Part shown: in pieces, positions 1-64,000 of the stretch | How positions within the stretch are numbered: the first letter of the stretch is position 1 | Layout of the letters: each line of letters opens with the position of its first letter | Assembly (NCBI GenBank): GCA_009841615.1 | Contig: VXLL01000011.1 | Coordinates: forward strand, 1-64,000 | Reading direction: 5' to 3' | Origin: Gammaproteobacteria bacterium | GTDB lineage: Bacteria; Pseudomonadota; Gammaproteobacteria; Pseudomonadales; Azotimanducaceae | DNA: 64,000 nt | Notes under the pieces: model-generated | What the model saw: the letters and a program-made list of their open reading frames with translations, nothing else | Told to the model about the DNA's origin: nothing | Database searches by the model: none | Program-made: the position numbers and the translations under genes

Positions 1-280
1 CGCTTTGACCATCTCGACACCCGCCTTCTGCTCCACATTCACCTTCATCGTCGCCGTCGTCGTCTTCGTCCTCGTCGTCGTCGTCGTCGCCGCATTGGCC
101 TTCGCCACACGAGGCTTCTTCTTCGTCTTCAGCGGCTAAAACATCGATATCGTCGAGAGACTCTGCTACGAATAGATTGTTAGCTTCTTCGTCAACAGAA
201 GCACTGAGGGCTACACCGAGAGAAGCCGCCATAAACGCACCGACGCCAACAATGGCAGGTTTGGATTCATTAATTTGCAT
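1..280 (-). CDS. HvfA-like RiPP metallophore precursor, C-terminus cut off by window edge
   Basis: The frame is open from an ATG at 280 to the left edge (93 codons seen). A GAGGAA ribosome binding site lies at 292-287, 6 nt before the ATG. The N-terminus is a signal-peptide-like segment (AIVGVGAFMAASLGVALSAS), followed by a short linker with NLF and AESLDD. Next come two Cys/Gly modules, CGEGQCG and EGECGAEGGC, separated by about 15 almost uninterrupted Asp/Glu residues. This layout matches HvfA-family exported precursors, in which EGxCG cysteines are modified by a DUF692 (MNIO) enzyme with a partner protein to give copper-binding peptides. The precursor call rests on motif layout. The modifying enzymes would be expected downstream, to the left of the window, and cannot be seen. 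The acidic spacer between EGxCG modules is unusual. Alternative: an unmodified acidic metal-binding periplasmic protein. Confidence 0.72.
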   Translation of the reverse strand, partial: MQINESKPAIVGVGAFMAASLGVALSASVDEEANNLFVAESLDDIDVLAAEDEEEASCGEGQCGDDDDDEDEDDDGDDEGECGAEGGCRDGQS

Positions 281-292: not shown

Positions 293-480
293 ACAAGGGT
301 TAGGGGTTGTGTAACTGAAAACTGCTTTATGTCAGTTTCAAACTACTTTTCTATCTGTAGAAGTGACAATATTACTCACAAATAATTCCATTATTCCTCC
401 ATTTTTCCGTCTGAGTGATCAATTTCGCAAACTTTTCGTAGAAATCTAAAAACAGATACCTAATTCACCTAGATGGATGA

Positions 481-3400
481 CTATTTGTGGTGTTCCCATT
501 GTGCAAATGCTTGTTCCAAACGCTGAGGAGAGAGTTTTATCCTGGTCTTTAATTCCTGACAGAATAGGGATAGTCGATATTCCTGGAGTAAATGAAACAA
601 TCTATCAGCGTATGGGTGCTGACGCGGAATACTGATAGAAGCCAGTCGTTCTTGCCAGCGCACTATTTCCCGGGTAGCAAGCAAATCCTTACTCAGTTTA
701 CCGGAAAGTCTATCTAAACGAACCTTTATACCGTTTAGATACCGAGGCAAATCAGGTAATCGTTCCATCGAAAACGAATAAGGAAAATCAGAATCAAAGA
801 GGCTATTGAGTTGCTCTATGATGTCTTTCCGAGACTCTTGAAACACTGGCTTCTCGAAAATATCTACTCGAAGCATCAATTGATGTCGCATCGCCAACAC
901 ATTCGATATTGAATCCATGAGTTGCAAAGCATTGGGAATGAAGTTTGGCCGTTTACTCTCGATTGTTCGCTGGAACTGTTCTTCAGTATCCGGTAGTGGC
1001 GGGGAAGGAAAAAATGTATTGCGAGCCGAGGTTAAAAACAGAAGTTGTCGAAAGTTTTCTAGATTTCCAAGACTCGTAGAGTACAACTGTAGTGTTCGGT
1101 CATTCTTGAACTGGGACGATAAATACATTGTCGTCTCGCGCTCACGTAAGAGTGCTAGACGACACATCCCCCTTAATGAAGCCTGGTACTGTTCTTGTTC
1201 ATCGAATCCTACTTTGATGTCGACACTATCACCACGATCGACTAGTACAGGAAAAAGCACGATCGTTCCGGACGGACTCTCCACAGTCATGGTGTGAGGT
1301 AAACCGGATTGTGGAAAAGTTTTCAATCCTTGTTGCTCATACTGTGCTTTGAACGAATCATCAAAACGGTTTTCAAGGAGGTGTTGAACGCGTTGACGGA
1401 GTTCAGACAAGTTTCGACCTTGCGCGATAACGTTTTGCTTTTGATCAATAATCTGAACATTCATGATCAGATGTCTCGATACATCGTCCAGACGCCACAC
1501 AGACGTAGCAATTTCCACATGAAATAAGGCTTGTATTCTTTGCGATAACACTTCTGCTAGATGACCGACTCGATAATGACCTTCCTGCAATAGTAAAGGC
1601 ACGAGTTCATGAACCTTGTCTGGTATTGGAGCTAGTTGCTTTCGATACTGTTTTGGCAGTCCGCGCAATAATTCAATACATTTTTCTTCAAAGAACCCTG
1701 GAACAATCCATTCCAGACTCGATTGTTGGAGTTTTGGTAAGTTTGCGACAGGAACACGAATCGATACTCCATCGTCGTCTCGGTCGGGGCCAAATTTATA
1801 CTTCAGTGTAAAACAAACTGAGTTGATTTCTACTGCTGCAGGATATTCTTTCTCACGAACGGAATATTCCTGAAGATGCAGAAATTCTTCACGTTGAATA
1901 AGCAGATTGCTGCGTTGCTGCGCTTCAGCGGTTCGGTACCAACGTATGAACGAAATTCGATCACAAATCTCCTCTGGAACCCTACTTCGATATAGTTCGG
2001 CAACTCCTGCTTCGTCCAAGACAATGTCGGTGCGTCGCTCCTTCGACTGTGTTTCAAGCAGGGATTCTCGAAGTCTGAAATTTGTACTGACTTCCCTATT
2101 TTCAATGTTGGCTCGATTACGAACCAGCGCATGGGTCAAAAATAGTTCCCGGGCTGCACTATGATCGTAATCTTTGAGTTTGACGCTACGATTCTGAACA
2201 ATTGGTAAGCCGTACACCGAAATGTCTAAATAAGTGCGACTATCGTTCTTTGACGAATCCCAATAGTGATCGTGTACCCGAGTTTTCACAAAAGTACGAG
2301 CGAAAGGTTCTATCCAAGTTGGCTTGATTTCTGCTAGACCTCGCGCATAGACCCTCGAAGTTTCGACAATCGTAGCAGCAACCACCCATTTTGGTTTGCG
2401 TCTTGCAATAACAGAACCGGGAAACAACGAGAATTTGAGGTTTCGAGCACCCTGATAGGACGAATCTTCCAATCGAAGTCCTAGAAAACTCAATGACCCA
2501 CTCAATATGGATTTGTGGACTTTTTCAAAGCTTGCTGCCTTTTCATTGACGTTCATTCGCAAACGTTTGCACGTTAGAACAAGCTGTCTGTGAAGGGCAC
2601 GCCATTCCAAGTATCGTTGCGTGGAGATAAAGTGTCTCTCAAGAACACGTTTAAGCTGAGTCCATGAATGGTGTTGCCTCTGTCCTTCTATCCATTCCCA
2701 CAAATTGAGGTATGATAAAAAGTCCGATTTAGGATGAAGGAATTGTTTGTGTAATTTGTCCGCCGCCTGTTGTTGTTCTAATGGCCGGAGAAAAGGCTCT
2801 TGTGCGGCCAATGCAGAAACGATAATTTGTAGTTCCTTCAGTGCGTTCTGCTGGTTCGCCTCAATTAACATTCGTGCAAGTCTCGGATCGACCGGAATTT
2901 GCACCATTTGTCTACCAAGATCGGTAATCTGATCGTTCTGCAAGGCACCTAGTTCATGTAGTAATCTCTTTGCAGCGGTGACGGCGCGGTCGTCAGGTCG
3001 ATTAATGAAGGGGAACGTCGCTATCTCACCAAAGCCGAAAACCATCATTTGTAACACGACTGCAGCAAGATTAGTCCGCATGATTTCAGGATCGGTGAAT
3101 GCTTCTCTTGACAGATAATCCTCCTCCGAGTACAGACGAAAACACACACCAGGAGCTAAGCGACCACATCTCCCCGCTCGCTGATTTGCACTAGCTTGAG
3201 AAATTGCTTCGATGGGTAGTCGCTGAATTCGAGAGCGCATGCTAAAACGGCTTATCCTAGCCTTCCCAAAGTCAATTACGTAGCGAATATTTGGGACTGT
3301 GAGACTGGTTTCAGCGACATTGGTTGCAAGCAAGATTCGACGTTTTGACGATGTCAAAAATATCTTTCGTTGTTCTGATGCAGGTAATCTAGCATAAAGA

Positions 3401-4305
3401 GGCAGGACCTCAAACCGACTCGCAAATCGCTTTCTGAACCAATGAGCCCAATTAAATATTTCTCTTTCTCCGGGGAGAAACACCAAGACATCCTGTACTT
3501 TCCTAGCAGGTGCGGCTTCAATTTCTTCGAGGCAGTCAATCATTATTTGCTCGGCATCTTCTTCAATCGGTTTGTATCTCATCTCTATTGGAAAAGATCT
3601 ACCTTCTGCGATAAATACAGGTGCGTTGCCGAAGAACGAAGAGAATGCTTGGACATCAATTGTCGCGCTGGTCACAATCACGTGTAAGTCCGAACGTCTT
3701 CTTAAGAGATGTTTTAAATATCCAAGTAAGAAGTCAATGTTTAAGCTACGTTCGTGAGCCTCATCAACAATTACCGTATCGTAGTCATACAAAGACCGAT
3801 CGCGTCGGATTTCGGTTAACAGTAACCCATCTGTCATTACCTTGACGAGCGTGTTTGGGCTCACTTGATCTTCAAACCGAACGGCAAATCCAACTTTCTC
3901 ACCCACGGTAGTGTCGAGTTGTTGGGCGAGCCGGTCAGCAACACTACGAGCTGCTAATCGACGTGGTTGCGTGTGGCAAATCATGCCTCGTGTACCTAAA
4001 TCGGCTTGTAAACATGCTAAGGGAAGTTGCGTAGTCTTACCCGATCCAGTCTGGCCGGCTACAAGGATAACTTGATGCTTCTTTAGTGCGCTGACGACTT
4101 CCGGTAAGACTGAGCAAATTGGAAGATCTGATTGATAATGGATGTGTGGCACCAACGCCTTTCGACGAGTTAACTCACGAGAGCTATCTGACAATATAGT
4201 GAGAGTCTTCTGATTGGATTCAACACGTCGAAGCGCTCGGCGTAGGACTGGACCATGCCTAGCGAGTATTCGCTCAACCGCAAAATCTTTGATTTTAGGA
4301 TCCAT
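481..4305 (-). CDS. hrpA: ATP-dependent RNA helicase HrpA (DEAH box)
   Basis: This 1274-residue protein has the length of gammaproteobacterial HrpA (about 1300). Walker A GQTGSGKT is at residues 84-91, the DEAH motif at 181-184 and SAT (motif III) shortly after. Motif VI (QRAGRCGR) closes the helicase core, followed by the helicase-associated/OB region and the long HrpA-specific C-terminal half (DUF3418). HrpA is a cytoplasmic 3'-5' RNA helicase linked to mRNA processing and rescue of stalled or collided ribosomes. It is a single gene; the neighbours on both sides are co-directional but separated by about 70 and 200 bp. The start MDPKIKDF at 4305 gives the expected N-terminus. Confidence 0.95.
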   Translation of the reverse strand: MDPKIKDFAVERILARHGPVLRRALRRVESNQKTLTILSDSSRELTRRKALVPHIHYQSDLPICSVLPEVVSALKKHQVILVAGQTGSGKTTQLPLACLQADLGTRGMICHTQPRRLAARSVADRLAQQLDTTVGEKVGFAVRFEDQVSPNTLVKVMTDGLLLTEIRRDRSLYDYDTVIVDEAHERSLNIDFLLGYLKHLLRRRSDLHVIVTSATIDVQAFSSFFGNAPVFIAEGRSFPIEMRYKPIEEDAEQIMIDCLEEIEAAPARKVQDVLVFLPGEREIFNWAHWFRKRFASRFEVLPLYARLPASEQRKIFLTSSKRRILLATNVAETSLTVPNIRYVIDFGKARISRFSMRSRIQRLPIEAISQASANQRAGRCGRLAPGVCFRLYSEEDYLSREAFTDPEIMRTNLAAVVLQMMVFGFGEIATFPFINRPDDRAVTAAKRLLHELGALQNDQITDLGRQMVQIPVDPRLARMLIEANQQNALKELQIIVSALAAQEPFLRPLEQQQAADKLHKQFLHPKSDFLSYLNLWEWIEGQRQHHSWTQLKRVLERHFISTQRYLEWRALHRQLVLTCKRLRMNVNEKAASFEKVHKSILSGSLSFLGLRLEDSSYQGARNLKFSLFPGSVIARRKPKWVVAATIVETSRVYARGLAEIKPTWIEPFARTFVKTRVHDHYWDSSKNDSRTYLDISVYGLPIVQNRSVKLKDYDHSAARELFLTHALVRNRANIENREVSTNFRLRESLLETQSKERRTDIVLDEAGVAELYRSRVPEEICDRISFIRWYRTAEAQQRSNLLIQREEFLHLQEYSVREKEYPAAVEINSVCFTLKYKFGPDRDDDGVSIRVPVANLPKLQQSSLEWIVPGFFEEKCIELLRGLPKQYRKQLAPIPDKVHELVPLLLQEGHYRVGHLAEVLSQRIQALFHVEIATSVWRLDDVSRHLIMNVQIIDQKQNVIAQGRNLSELRQRVQHLLENRFDDSFKAQYEQQGLKTFPQSGLPHTMTVESPSGTIVLFPVLVDRGDSVDIKVGFDEQEQYQASLRGMCRLALLRERETTMYLSSQFKNDRTLQLYSTSLGNLENFRQLLFLTSARNTFFPSPPLPDTEEQFQRTIESKRPNFIPNALQLMDSISNVLAMRHQLMLRVDIFEKPVFQESRKDIIEQLNSLFDSDFPYSFSMERLPDLPRYLNGIKVRLDRLSGKLSKDLLATREIVRWQERLASISIPRQHPYADRLFHLLQEYRLSLFCQELKTRIKLSPQRLEQAFAQWEHHK

Positions 4306-4716: not shown

Positions 4717-5175
4717 CTACTCATCGGAATTTTCTACCCACTTTATGACCTGCGTTGCAAGATCATCAGGATGGATGTCTCTTTCGGATATGGTTCGATC
4801 TGCGACCGAAATGCCTAAGTCTCTCATCTTCTCAGAATTTCCAGCAATCAACGGATGCCAGTCATGCAAAGATTCCCCGTTAGCAATCAGCCGATAAGCA
4901 CATGTATCCGGCAACCAATAGAGTGAGGCCACGTTCTCTGGTGAGATTTCAACGCAATCAGGCACTAGGCGATGCCGATCATCATAAGAAAGACAGCGAC
5001 ATGTTTCAGTGTCGAGTAATTTACACACAACTGGTGTCATGATGTATTTCGAGCTGTCTGCTACTTTAAACTTCAACTGGCAGCACTGCGCACAACCATC
5101 GCACAGACTCTCCCACTCATCCTCACTCATTTCGGTTAACTTCTTGGTCTGCCAAAAAGGTTCAACTGTGGGCAT
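4717..5175 (-). CDS. YcgN/UPF0260 family cysteine-cluster protein
   Basis: 152 residues, the same size as E. coli YcgN (about 153). The family's CDGCAQCC cluster is at residues 25-32, followed by further cysteines in CKLLDTETCRC and PDC and by the WLPDTCAYRL segment. The cysteine pattern suggests a metal or Fe-S site (YkgJ-like), but no biochemical role is established. The first 48 codons are repeated perfectly upstream at 5371-5514 because of a 339-bp tandem duplication. This copy is intact. The start is the same ATG context as in the duplicate, 12 nt after the preceding stop codon. Confidence 0.88.
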   Translation of the reverse strand: MPTVEPFWQTKKLTEMSEDEWESLCDGCAQCCQLKFKVADSSKYIMTPVVCKLLDTETCRCLSYDDRHRLVPDCVEISPENVASLYWLPDTCAYRLIANGESLHDWHPLIAGNSEKMRDLGISVADRTISERDIHPDDLATQVIKWVENSDE

Positions 5176-5710
5176 ACTTTCTTCCAGCTAAGAGTTCAAA
5201 ATCTCTCGAAGTTCGGTACCCATGACTTCTTCTCGCCAAGCTCCGAAGGATGGTGGCAAGTCGTGATATTCGTAAAAATAAGAAATCCAACTACTAATCT
5301 GGTGACTACGACCTAAGGTCTCCGCTGCTAACTTTATTGAATCTGACTTTATTGCTACGAGCTGTTTAATGGGTGTCATGATGTATTTCGAGCTGTCTGC
5401 TACTTTAAACTTCAACTGGCAGCACTGCGCACAACCATCGCACAGACTCTCCCACTCATCCTCACTCATTTCGGTTAACTTCTTGGTCTGCCAAAAAGGT
5501 TCAACTGTGGGCATACTTTCTTCCAGCTAAGAGTTCAAAATCTCTCGAAGTTCGGTACCCATGACTTCTTCTCGCCAAGCTCCGAAGGATGGTGGCAAGT
5601 CGTGATATTCGTAAAAATAAGAAATCCAACTACTAATCTGGTGACTACGACCTAAGGTCTCCGCTGCTAACTTTATTGAATCTGACTTTATTGCTACGAG
5701 CTGTTTAATG
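5033..5710. repeat. perfect 339-bp tandem duplication (two units, 5033-5371 and 5372-5710)
   Basis: The segment from GGTGTCATGATG at 5033 to the GTTTAATG ending at 5371 is repeated from 5372 to 5710, and I found no mismatch by eye. Each unit contains the 3' end of rnd, the rnd/ycgN intergenic spacer and the 5' end of ycgN. Three shared bases (GGT) at the original end points suggest a microhomology-mediated event. The length is 113 codons exactly, so reading frame is preserved across the new junction. Perfect identity means a very recent event or an assembly duplication. Confidence 0.93.
5188..5514 (-). CDS. chimeric ORF: YcgN N-terminus fused in frame to RNase D C-terminus
   Basis: 108 residues created by the 339-bp duplication. 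The first 48 residues equal the start of the YcgN-family protein, including CDGCAQCC and ending at YIMTP. After the junction near 5371 the remaining 60 residues equal the C-terminus of RNase D, beginning [11 protein letters not shown] and ending REILNS. It keeps the ycgN start context, so it is probably translated between rnd and ycgN. Neither part is a complete domain: the YcgN half lacks the later cysteines and the RNase D half has only the end of the second HRDC region. A function is unlikely; it is best regarded as a duplication by-product. Confidence 0.6.
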
Positions 5711-61793: not shown

Positions 61794-62810
61794 TCATAAG
61801 GCGAGTTCAACTACACCGCGCCCAACCATCTCCCCTTTCAATAGTTTGTCTACGCCCGACATTACAGTTTCGAGGTTATATGAGCTTAGTAGTTGATCTA
61901 ATTGGGGAAATTTCCATTCGCTAGCTAGTCTTTCCCACATTCGCTCTCTCTCAGCTGTCGGAGTCTCGGCGGAGTCGACACCTAGCAAATTTACGTTGCG
62001 AAGTATGAATGGGAACACAGAACCTGGAAACTTAGGGGAGCCTACTAAGCCACACGCTGCAGCACTACAACCATAACGTAGTCCTTTGATCGCGTGCATG
62101 AGCATCTCGCCACCCACCGTATCAATTATCCCTCCCCAAGTTTCACGTAGTAATGCACGTTGTGAACCATCCATGAATTCTTCTCGGTTATAAATCGATT
62201 GTGCCCCTAATGATCGTAGAAATTCGTACTGCGTTATCTTGCCAGTAACCGCATGAACGTCATACCCCAGGTGAGATAACAGACCAACAGCGCAACTTCC
62301 TACTCCTCCCGTAGAGCCGGTGACCACTACTGGACCACCTTCGGGTGACATGCCCAACGCAGTTAGTTTTTCGACACATAGGGCTGCGGTCAAACCAGCC
62401 GTACCGATGATCATACTCTCGTTCAAAGACAGTCCCTTAGGTTTTCGAACAGCCCAATGAGCTGGTACTCGAATTCGTTGACCGAAACCACCGTCTCTAT
62501 CCATACCGAGCCTGAAGCCAGTAACGATGACGATGTCTCCTCTTTTGTATTCGTCAGTATTTGATTCGAGTACTGATCCTACCGCATCGATCCCAGGTGT
62601 ATGAGGATAGTCGCGAGTTACACCCGGAGCACCCGTTGCGGACAACGCATCTTTGTAATTAAGGGATGAGTAATGTACTTCGATCAGAAGGTCGTCCGGA
62701 GGGAGCTCTTCCACTGATCTTGTAACTATCTCGTGTCGGCAGTTACCGTCCGATTCTCGGAAAACTCGTAGCGCTCGAAACTCGCTCAAGGTAGTTTTCG
62801 CCGTAGCCAT
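61794..62810 (-). CDS. acuI: acrylyl-CoA reductase / YhdH-type zinc-free MDR oxidoreductase
   Basis: 338 residues from ATG 62810 (MATAKTTLSEFRALRVF). The upstream in-frame codon at 62882 would force a 97-bp overlap with sohB and an unusual leader, so I preferred the shorter form. Medium-chain reductase motifs include SSLNYKDALSATGAPGVTRD, TPGIDAVGSVLE, and the nucleotide loop VVVTGSTGGVGSCAVGLLS. These are typical of YhdH/AcuI. It reduces acrylyl-CoA to propionyl-CoA with NADPH, as in DMSP or 3-hydroxypropionate metabolism. No DMSP lyase gene is visible. It overlaps sohB by 25 bp. Confidence 0.85.
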   Translation of the reverse strand: MATAKTTLSEFRALRVFRESDGNCRHEIVTRSVEELPPDDLLIEVHYSSLNYKDALSATGAPGVTRDYPHTPGIDAVGSVLESNTDEYKRGDIVIVTGFRLGMDRDGGFGQRIRVPAHWAVRKPKGLSLNESMIIGTAGLTAALCVEKLTALGMSPEGGPVVVTGSTGGVGSCAVGLLSHLGYDVHAVTGKITQYEFLRSLGAQSIYNREEFMDGSQRALLRETWGGIIDTVGGEMLMHAIKGLRYGCSAAACGLVGSPKFPGSVFPFILRNVNLLGVDSAETPTAERERMWERLASEWKFPQLDQLLSSYNLETVMSGVDKLLKGEMVGRGVVELAL

Positions 62811-63922
62811 CTCGCAATAGAGAGCATCGACGTTGCTGTTTGAGTCAGTATGTCGGACAATTGCTTCTTCGGCGGATGCCAAGTCAATTCAAACACTCTC
62901 GAGTCGTCGCATGCGTTCATGATGTATTCGTCGCTTGTCATGATGTCGTCAATCAAATTACGAGCCAAAGCGCGTTCGCCATACCAAGATTCACCAGTCG
63001 CAACGACAGACAAGTCAACGTCCGGTCGATGGTTTGACACAAATTCCTTGAAGAGCTCGTGTACGTCCTCTATTTCTTCCAAGAACTTCTTTCGTGCCGC
63101 ATCAGTGTTTTCGCCGAATACCGATAGTGTCCGTTTGAATTCTCCGGCAGTAATGATTTCATAGTCGATGTCGTATTTTTTTAATAATCGATTGACGTTC
63201 GGTATCTCAGCTGCAACGCCAATCGAGCCTACAAGCGCGAAGGGAGCTGCCAAAATTTGATCTGCGACGACGGCGATCATATAGCCTCCACTCGCGGCTA
63301 CTTCGTCTACCGCCACAGTAAGTTTGACTCCTGCTTTACGAACGCGCATTAGTTGGGATGCGGCGTAGCCATATGAGTGCACGACACCACCTGGACTCTC
63401 TACCTTGACCACGACTTCATCGTTTTTCGTGGCCTGAGTCAACACAGCAGAAATCTCATGTTTGAGCCGCTCTACTTTACTGGCTTCCAAATCCCCTTCA
63501 AATCCAAGCACATAAACACTCTTTTGCTTTTCTTCTGAATCCTCTGTCTCCTCTTTGTCGCCCTTGCCGTTTTCTCCCGTGTCGTCCTCCTCATCCTTGG
63601 CACTTGACTCTTGTTCCGTGGCCGATGCACTCTTCTCCGAGGAAGACTTAGCCTCAGTTTTCTCTTTTTGTTTCTTTTCCTTCTGCTCTGCTTTTCGGTG
63701 TTTCTTCACTTGACCCGGGCTAAGTGAAGCTTGCTCAATCGTCGAACGCATTGCATCGTAAAAGTCGTTTAAATAACGAACTGTTAGGTGTCCCACTTGA
63801 GTACGATCTGTAGTACGACGCATTGCGACTGAACTGATGACCGCGATTACCACTACGATGGCAATGACTACGGTAATGGTTTGCAACAAAAAAGTGAGGT
63901 AATCCCACAGTATTTCCATCAT
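62786..63922 (-). CDS. sohB: inner-membrane serine protease SohB
   Basis: 378 residues (E. coli SohB 349). An N-terminal membrane helix (LLQTITVVIAIVVVIAVIS) is followed by the SohB N-terminal segment RTTDRTQVGHLTVRYLNDFY. The S49 domain has the nucleophile Ser in DEVAASGGYMIAVVADQILA and the catalytic Lys in TAGEFKRTLSVFGENTDAAR. Between them and the N-terminus lies a Lys/Glu/Ser low-complexity linker of about 60 residues (roughly 72-135), longer than usual. The active site faces the periplasm. The gene ends inside the acuI start. The 78 bp right of the start hold the promoter. Confidence 0.92.
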   Translation of the reverse strand: MMEILWDYLTFLLQTITVVIAIVVVIAVISSVAMRRTTDRTQVGHLTVRYLNDFYDAMRSTIEQASLSPGQVKKHRKAEQKEKKQKEKTEAKSSSEKSASATEQESSAKDEEDDTGENGKGDKEETEDSEEKQKSVYVLGFEGDLEASKVERLKHEISAVLTQATKNDEVVVKVESPGGVVHSYGYAASQLMRVRKAGVKLTVAVDEVAASGGYMIAVVADQILAAPFALVGSIGVAAEIPNVNRLLKKYDIDYEIITAGEFKRTLSVFGENTDAARKKFLEEIEDVHELFKEFVSNHRPDVDLSVVATGESWYGERALARNLIDDIMTSDEYIMNACDDSRVFELTWHPPKKQLSDILTQTATSMLSIARWLRRKLP

Positions 63923-64000
63923 TGAATTAGCCCTAATTTAGCGTTGATAGTGGTGGAGGTTCCACCGAATTGAGTTCGTGTTCTACCTGGTACTAGACAT

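Follow-up and report, generated by a model that had tools for sequence, protein, structure and literature searches.

A Predicted Acid-Rich HvfA-Type RiPP Precursor Carried by a Genus of Azotimanducaceae

The stretch of DNA analyzed here (64,000 nucleotides, hereafter the window) begins at the first base of contig C7 and very probably opens with the start of hvfA, the first gene of an hvfA-hvfB-hvfC operon located behind hrpA. Judged by its cluster and its motif, the predicted precursor is a member of the known HvfA/EGKCG family; what is unusual is the acid-rich version of the putative precursor that the genus carries. The peculiarity is one of charge overall and not of a single insert, in that the spacer and the C-terminal tail are both Asp/Glu blocks. 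From sequence comparison we infer that this polyanionic spacer and tail are a trait of the genus and of a few neighboring lineages.

The window encodes the 5' part of an HvfA-type precursor

The minus-strand frame running from position 280 to position 2 starts with ATG and leaves the window after 93 codons without a stop, so that the gene (2..280, minus) is truncated at the contig end. Residues 1 to 27 (200..280, minus) read by eye as a Sec-signal-like N terminus, of which residues 8 to 27 are hydrophobic and export-signal-like on the same reading, and they can be aligned to the N termini of 25 other precursors. A conserved stretch at residues 29 to 56 (113..196, minus), which contains NLFVAESLDDIDVLAAED, aligns with N(P/L)F..L..GY..LA of relatives and is likely the leader region read by HvfB/HvfC. 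It is followed by a CGEGQCG module (residues 58 to 64; 89..109, minus), the acidic spacer DDDDDEDEDDDGDD (residues 65 to 78; 47..88, minus), and an EGECGAEGGC module (residues 79 to 88; 17..46, minus) in which Ala84 is contested by contig C30. The spacer holds 13 Asp/Glu and 1 Gly in 14 positions, or 14 acidic residues in 15 if Glu79 is counted. The contig-end sequence RDGQS (2..16, minus) conflicts with C30 and with the closest congeners and is probably poor sequence, because four of the five closest congeners (L035 to L038) read GGCGEGQC in the same place and the fifth (L039) reads GECGEGEC.

An earlier note, made from the letters of the window, had described an HvfA-like partial precursor with CGEGQCG and EGECGAEGGC modules, and this description holds on the minus strand from 280 to 2. 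The note also spoke of an acidic insert between the modules. The 14-residue block is there, but beyond the last Cys module the C30 precursor end and the intact congeners have an acidic tail as well, and "insert" is too weak a word because the entire post-leader region is polyanionic across the genus.

With a test profile derived from 18 precursors that lie outside the genus, the window protein scored 54.0 bits, compared with maxima of 10.8 bits in 2,000 full shuffles and 28.9 bits in 2,000 block-wise shuffles that kept the acidic composition in place. The leader alone reached 22.8 bits and the protein with its acidic runs masked reached 32.5 bits; therefore, leader and Cys modules both carry signal, and the acidic composition also adds to the profile score. 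The second best of 712 window reading frames, a protease-like ORF with an acidic linker, reached 16.2 bits. By eye, a SohB-like protein at 62789-63937 of the window (minus) has an internal acidic linker, which contains Lys.

The NCBIfam HvfA models matched the 93 visible residues below their cutoffs (NF050188, the HvfA model, E value of 8.5e-6 and 26.3 bits with a cutoff of 95; NF050137, the HvfA-family model, 14 bits with a cutoff of 19.5). The intact orthologue L035 scored 22.5 bits with NF050137, above the cutoff, and 19.1 bits with NF050188, under it; at E values up to 0.1, NF050188 matched 25 and NF050137 matched 24 of 26 aligned precursors. Repeated EGKCG-type pentamers (EGQCG, EGECG, and variants) are present in the window and on C30. 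The bufferin family, which the earlier note had proposed to search alongside HvfA, gave nothing: at E values up to 1, DUF2282 (Buf1 bufferin) had no Pfam match among 11 sequences comprising the window fragment, the end of C30, and nine congener precursors. A chance or artefactual origin of the precursor is rejected on the profile scores relative to shuffles together with the intact orthologues. The leader and module score, the intact orthologue, and the MNIO cluster described below all lead us to judge the earlier call of an HvfA-type RiPP precursor to be right.

Contig C30 very probably carries the remainder of the cluster

At its right end, contig C30 (5351 bp) matches the first 141 bases of the window with 88% identity, and no third contig matching the first 600 window bases was found in the same assembly. 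The 17 mismatches fall within window bases 1-30 (5) and at window positions 65-136 (12), with none at positions 31-64, so that they cluster toward each contig's own terminus, and the two reading frames agree gap-free across the overlap. At the C30 end the frame is interrupted by a stop codon at a place where it stays open in the window; both contig ends are thus of doubtful quality, and the two sequences were left unmerged. We infer from the overlap and from synteny that C30 adjoins C7. That they are separate loci and the window fragment an orphan precursor, as the identity of only 88% in the 141-nt overlap, the in-frame stop, and the unlinked precursors of 6 of 18 genus genomes might suggest, is very improbable given the placement of the mismatches, the agreement of the frames, the lack of a third matching contig for the first 600 bases, and the occurrence of exactly this gene order in the five closest congeners.

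On C30 the precursor ends in ...DEGECGEEGGCGEGQCGEEDDSDDDEDADEEDEEETTEE and a stop, on the same strand as the window precursor. An MNIO gene of the HvfB family (C30 5043-4180) and a DUF2063 gene of the HvfC family (C30 4187-3423) lie on that strand and overlap each other by 8 nt; on its other side, hvfC faces a convergent TerB-like gene. The MNIO scored 419 bits with NF003818 (HvfB family; cutoff, 360) and its partner 213 bits with NF050145 (HvfC; cutoff, 142), whereas the MNIO stayed below the cutoff for the bufferin maturase BufB (248.5 versus 310 bits). Pfam matches were to MbnB_TglH_ChrH (5.6e-99), DUF2063 (1.4e-21), and NGO1945_C (7e-15), and the relatives in PDB were 3BWW (8.3e-78) and 3DEE (8.7e-13), which are named as the MNIO and PME1 of such clusters (PMC13097082, in part). 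The earlier note had proposed a search for MNIO, HvfC, and DoxX genes in the sequence to the left of the window, in the orientation of the precursor, and had named the lack of an MNIO gene and of further EGxCG modules as grounds against its reading. The MNIO gene, the HvfC gene, and further modules are on C30, so that neither ground applies. No DoxX gene was seen on that contig, and the sole DoxX-family match of the genome is on contig C11.

Across 21 MNIOs, Arg15, Arg16, Asp253, Asn180, Asp222, and His224 are invariant and Phe254 is nearly so. Equated by motif, Arg15, Arg16, Asp253, and Phe254 would correspond to FonB Arg15/Arg16/Asp249/Phe250 (PMC13097082, in part), and counting on 3BWW, in which Asp242 and His244 are one number off, would place Asn180/Asp222/His224 at HvfB site-3 Asn175/Asp242/His244 (PMC13419390, in part). 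The predicted HvfB-family MNIO retains residues reported to be essential or to contact substrate, including the substrate-contact residues of FonB.

The acidic trait is concentrated in the genus

Post-leader net charge per residue was calculated for 103 precursors, or 98 after five between-collection duplicates were removed. The named sample consisted of the best 80 matches to the MNIO of the window's own genome and therefore leans toward close relatives; a precursor was found upstream of the MNIO in 66 of the 80 loci (the other 14 include some at a contig end), and removal of L114 (wrong frame) left 65. Of 38 motif-bearing frames from family and genus loci, five were dropped (L004/L005 [contig end]; L007 and L043 [masked bases]; L049 [incomplete]). 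Six unlinked precursors brought the total to 104, and the masked L082 was skipped to give 103. An alternative start rule for L081 and L125, the start of which otherwise falls inside the leader, left the counts unchanged. The window's own genome was excluded from the full charge values, as its gene is split.

Among the 15 scorable congeners the net charge per residue runs from -0.61 to -0.45, and the five lowest of the 98 values (-0.61 to -0.57) belong to the five congeners closest to the window. Values at or below -0.35, a threshold chosen after the values were seen, occur in 20 of the 98, five of which are from other genera (L006, L008, L077, L078, and L087); the remaining 78 have a median of -0.03 and range from -0.34 to +0.22. 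Acidic precursors have fewer cysteines (mean, 3.8; range, 2 to 6) than the rest (mean, 7.2; range, 2 to 15), with five in each of the five closest congeners and 3 to 6 across the 15. They also differ in the motif: Lys precedes Cys-Gly in 485 of 573 motifs of nonacidic precursors, while the same position in the motifs of the acidic set (n = 89) is Glu in 34, Lys in 28, Gln in 17, Gly in 7, and Ser in 3, both counts including the five duplicates.

On a tree of MNIOs (125 rows, 104 of them labeled and 24 acidic, duplicates included), the acidic label requires 5 changes compared with 22.3 in shuffles, a difference to which near-copies contribute; two ways of counting gave 3 and 5 changes, and 5 was used. 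For the window's own genome (L005), with its split precursor, the acidic label was assigned manually. Such clustering is as expected for a trait that would have been inherited in a few lineages. HvfB is not more acidic in these organisms (-0.067 per residue in the acidic group against -0.069), and the products of hrpA, rnd, recR, and dnaX are near neutral, so that, to the extent that these proteins can tell, the acidity does not extend to the whole proteome; an acidic-proteome explanation is unsupported by them.

When the order was searched with the acidic genus profile, 126 of 390 genomes gave a match. The 27 loci that this added to the analysis, two of them in genomes that the family sample had included (G019 and G037), yielded 26 precursors (none from L168), and none of the 26 was at or below -0.35; among the other order-wide matches, G006 had a charge of -0.42. 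We did not find a hyperacidic branch of HvfA/EGKCG precursors described in the literature searched, although individual acidic sequences may well be listed in supplements. The main text of PMC12452194 does not use the word "acidic"; PMC13097082 uses it once, for motif position 1, and PMC12538549 twice.

Gene order, unlinked precursors, and candidate regulatory elements

Among the best 80 MNIO matches, the close named relatives are MAGs of uncultured Gammaproteobacteria, and some of their sample names are what we take to be those of sponge surveys. An MNIO match was found in 38 of 61 genomes of the family sample, remote matches included. Within the genus, all 18 genomes have an MNIO and all 18 have a precursor match (weakest best match, 6.9e-7). 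The gene upstream of hvfA in the window is hrpA (481..4305, minus), encoding a DEAD/DEAH helicase with DUF3418, and the order hrpA-hvfA-hvfB-hvfC recurs in congeners: the HrpA C terminus precedes hvfA or hvfB in 17 of 17 other genus loci tested, and HvfC was found in 16 of 17 genus loci, all but L049.

In 12 of the 18 genus genomes the precursor is flanked by hrpA and hvfB, namely, in the ten congeners L035 to L044, the window's own genome, and G070; this count takes in the own genome split over two contigs, L043 partly masked, L044 with one stop in its MNIO, and G070 with an interrupted precursor frame. In G070, the region ahead of hvfB (L071 1465-2001) shows DGMDGEAGGD-like acidic repeats in a broken frame. 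In the other six genomes (G007, G040, G069, G071, G074, and G075) the precursor is located away from hvfBC, and hvfB directly follows hrpA, as established by full reading for G007 and G040 and by an HrpA match ending 34 to 48 nt ahead of the MNIO match for G069, G071, G074, and G075. The precursor of G075 is on the same contig as hvfB at a distance of ~215 kb. At the one unlinked locus tested (L068), the adjoining gene has a FAN1 HTH domain; by eye, the other five (L066, L069, L070, L072, and L073) resemble it. The unlinked precursors of these six congeners would be easily overlooked in cluster-based mining.

Two loci elsewhere in the family deserve mention. G019 (L161) has an EGKCG precursor on contig C144 and its MNIO on C169; thus, unlinked precursors may also occur outside the genus. 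In another family member (L028 1159-1413), CSGDGD repeats, a motif that differs from EGxCG, are found upstream of the MNIO.

A candidate promoter, GGAAT-N17-GTC (365..389, minus), was picked as a pattern after the alignment had been seen; it presumably resembles an extracytoplasmic-function (ECF) sigma promoter. The form GGAA(C/T)-N17-GTC precedes the start codon by 109 to 120 nt at 9 of the 11 linked genus loci tested (absent from L041 and L044), six of the nine being close congeners, and it was found in 0 of 6 unlinked genus loci and in 5 of 16 other family loci, once with N18. Its chance occurrence per locus ranged from 0.003 to 0.063 in 300 shuffles. The genome has three Sigma70_r4_2 matches above cutoff, none of them linked to the hvf operon here.

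The gap between hvfA and hvfB can form a stable hairpin (L004 5059-5095, and likewise the gaps of L039 to L043). All six regions folded had z scores of -3.7 to -7.3, with none of 200 shuffles as stable in each case, and the hairpin is also present at loci with sequences that are unlike by eye. A 17-pair helix is 88.2% paired in six congeners, compared with 17.6 to 48.0% for slid controls. Covariation was rejected as support: both partners change in 3 pairs, where shuffles average 2.1 such pairs, and 159 of 500 shuffles reach the same count, which adds little beyond the fold itself. As a conjecture, the hairpin might set the precursor-to-enzyme ratio.

Relation to known systems and a proposed mechanism

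EGKCG precursors are a large family accompanied by MNIO, DUF2063, and often DoxX genes (PMC12452194, in part). The predicted product resembles HvfA/oxazolin of the Haemophilus influenzae hvf operon in its export-signal-like leader, its repeated EGxCG, its HvfB MNIO, and its HvfC RRE partner (PMC13419390, in part), and it differs in that the motif Lys is often replaced by Glu, Gln, Gly, or Ser, in its Asp/Glu spacer and tail, and in that no DoxX-like gene was seen on C30, such a gene being frequent but not universal in the EGKCG family; here, hvfC is followed by the convergent TerB-like gene. Fontiphorin, a captophorin of Fontimonas thermophila (FonABC), has a similarly minimal cluster of precursor, MNIO, and PME1 (PMC13097082, in part), but FonA has seven Lys-Cys modification sites, whereas the five closest congeners have five Cys within a polyanion. 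MmrA (bulbicupramide) shares EGKCG repeats, the copper chelation predicted here, and a marine bacterial host, Microbulbifer (PMC12538549, in part); five Microbulbifer precursors compared are, in contrast, net basic (+0.08 to +0.12), and a sixth locus (L131) yielded none.

The chemistry of these relatives and the retained MNIO residues are the reasons to expect modification, export, and copper binding here. FonBC and HvfBC install 5-thiooxazoles, and the resulting peptides bind copper (PMC13097082, in part). By analogy, HvfC would help HvfB to read the leader, HvfB would oxidize the module cysteines to 5-thiooxazoles, and the peptide would be exported and bind copper. There is a tension in this scheme, in that Glu is the commonest residue at motif position 3 in the acidic set and yet is poorly processed there by FonBC (PMC13097082, in part); some cysteines may therefore stay unmodified.

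What the polyanion might do

We tentatively favor, at somewhat less than even confidence, a copper-binding thiooxazole peptide held soluble by its polyanionic parts. The analogy turns on one observation, that fontiphorin precipitates or forms large particles on copper loading (PMC13097082, in part); a polyanionic spacer and tail would keep the copper-loaded peptide extended and soluble. Block length appears to change within Asp/Glu codon runs while charge is retained. Five columns show Asp/Glu swaps and three show acid loss (P = 0.027 against an assumed 1 in 4), which, for eight author-selected columns, we grade as a weak sign of selection on charge. The roles considered here (solubility, a cation site, recognition, and drift) are partly compatible and do not all exclude one another.

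A speculative and rather unlikely alternative to the solubilizing role starts from the second metal site that the earlier note had suggested for the acidic block: hard cations (Ca2+, Mg2+, Fe, or Cu2+) would bind with low affinity to the spacer and tail, which would make the peptide a two-metal buffer. Runs of Asp/Glu are generally able to bind cations, which counts in its favor. There are also precedents for combining EGKCG-type repeats with acidic sequence that may bind cations: EGKC precursors that carry a fused pair of EF-hand_5 domains (PMC12452194, in part) and EfhP, with four EGKCG repeats and a hypothesized dual role in Ca and Fe (PMC11559002, in part). The acidic runs here differ from those fusions in being of low complexity and free of an EF-hand domain, since EF-hand, EF-hand_5, and other metal-site families of Pfam had no match at E values up to 1 among the 11 sequences examined for DUF2282 (window fragment, end of C30, and nine congener precursors). 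The length and order of the runs also differ between close congeners, unlike a defined site.

To a similar degree unlikely, in our estimation, is a reading in which the acidic, Lys-poor motif serves enzyme recognition, the HvfBC of this clade having moved from Lys-Cys to Glu/Gln-Cys and requiring the surrounding charge. The scarcity of Lys before Cys-Gly in the acidic group is in keeping with it, as is the contact between FonB Arg15/Arg16 and the motif Glu in the published model (PMC13097082, in part). The enzymes themselves argue the other way: the Arg-Arg pair is kept in 23 of 24 acidic-group MNIOs (one unparsed) and Asp-Phe in 24 of 24, and the correlation between precursor and MNIO charge is weak and nonsignificant (Spearman, -0.18; P = 0.07; n = 103).

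We consider it slightly less likely again that the blocks are a neutral by-product of Asp/Glu codon-run expansion that is merely tolerated. Consistent with expansion, 10 of the 18 acidic codons in the post-leader part of the window gene are GAC, compared with 22 of 154 in hrpA, and block length varies among close congeners. Against neutrality, a strongly negative charge is found in 15 of 15 scorable congeners and at two different gene locations, the codons are mixed (GAA, GAC, GAG, and GAT), and, with 13 gapped columns excluded, 27 of 33 ungapped acid-holding columns are acidic in all five close orthologues.

The broadest proposal, and rather an improbable one taken as a whole, is that this captophorin branch is a two-part buffer in which thiooxazoles hold soft Cu(I) and a genus-specific polyanion holds hard cations, that its HvfBC accepts Glu-Cys and Gln-Cys motifs where FonBC handles Glu poorly, and that its precursor gene is able to leave the operon of its enzymes.

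Whichever of these roles applies, the precursors constitute a natural charge series of about +0.2 to -0.6 per residue under one enzyme type. Captophorins are widespread, and fontiphorin aggregates with copper in vitro (PMC13097082, in part). With the series one could test directly whether copper-induced aggregation is controlled by charge and how far HvfB tolerates non-Lys residues before the modified Cys.

A duplication elsewhere in the window

Two 300-nt copies at 5033-5332 and 5372-5671 of the window are 100% identical and are placed 339 nt apart. They cover the last part of an RNase D-like gene and the first part of a gene with a CxxCxxCC domain, and the duplication gives rise to a chimeric ORF (5188-5514) between the copies. 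It is either a recent tandem duplication or an assembly error.
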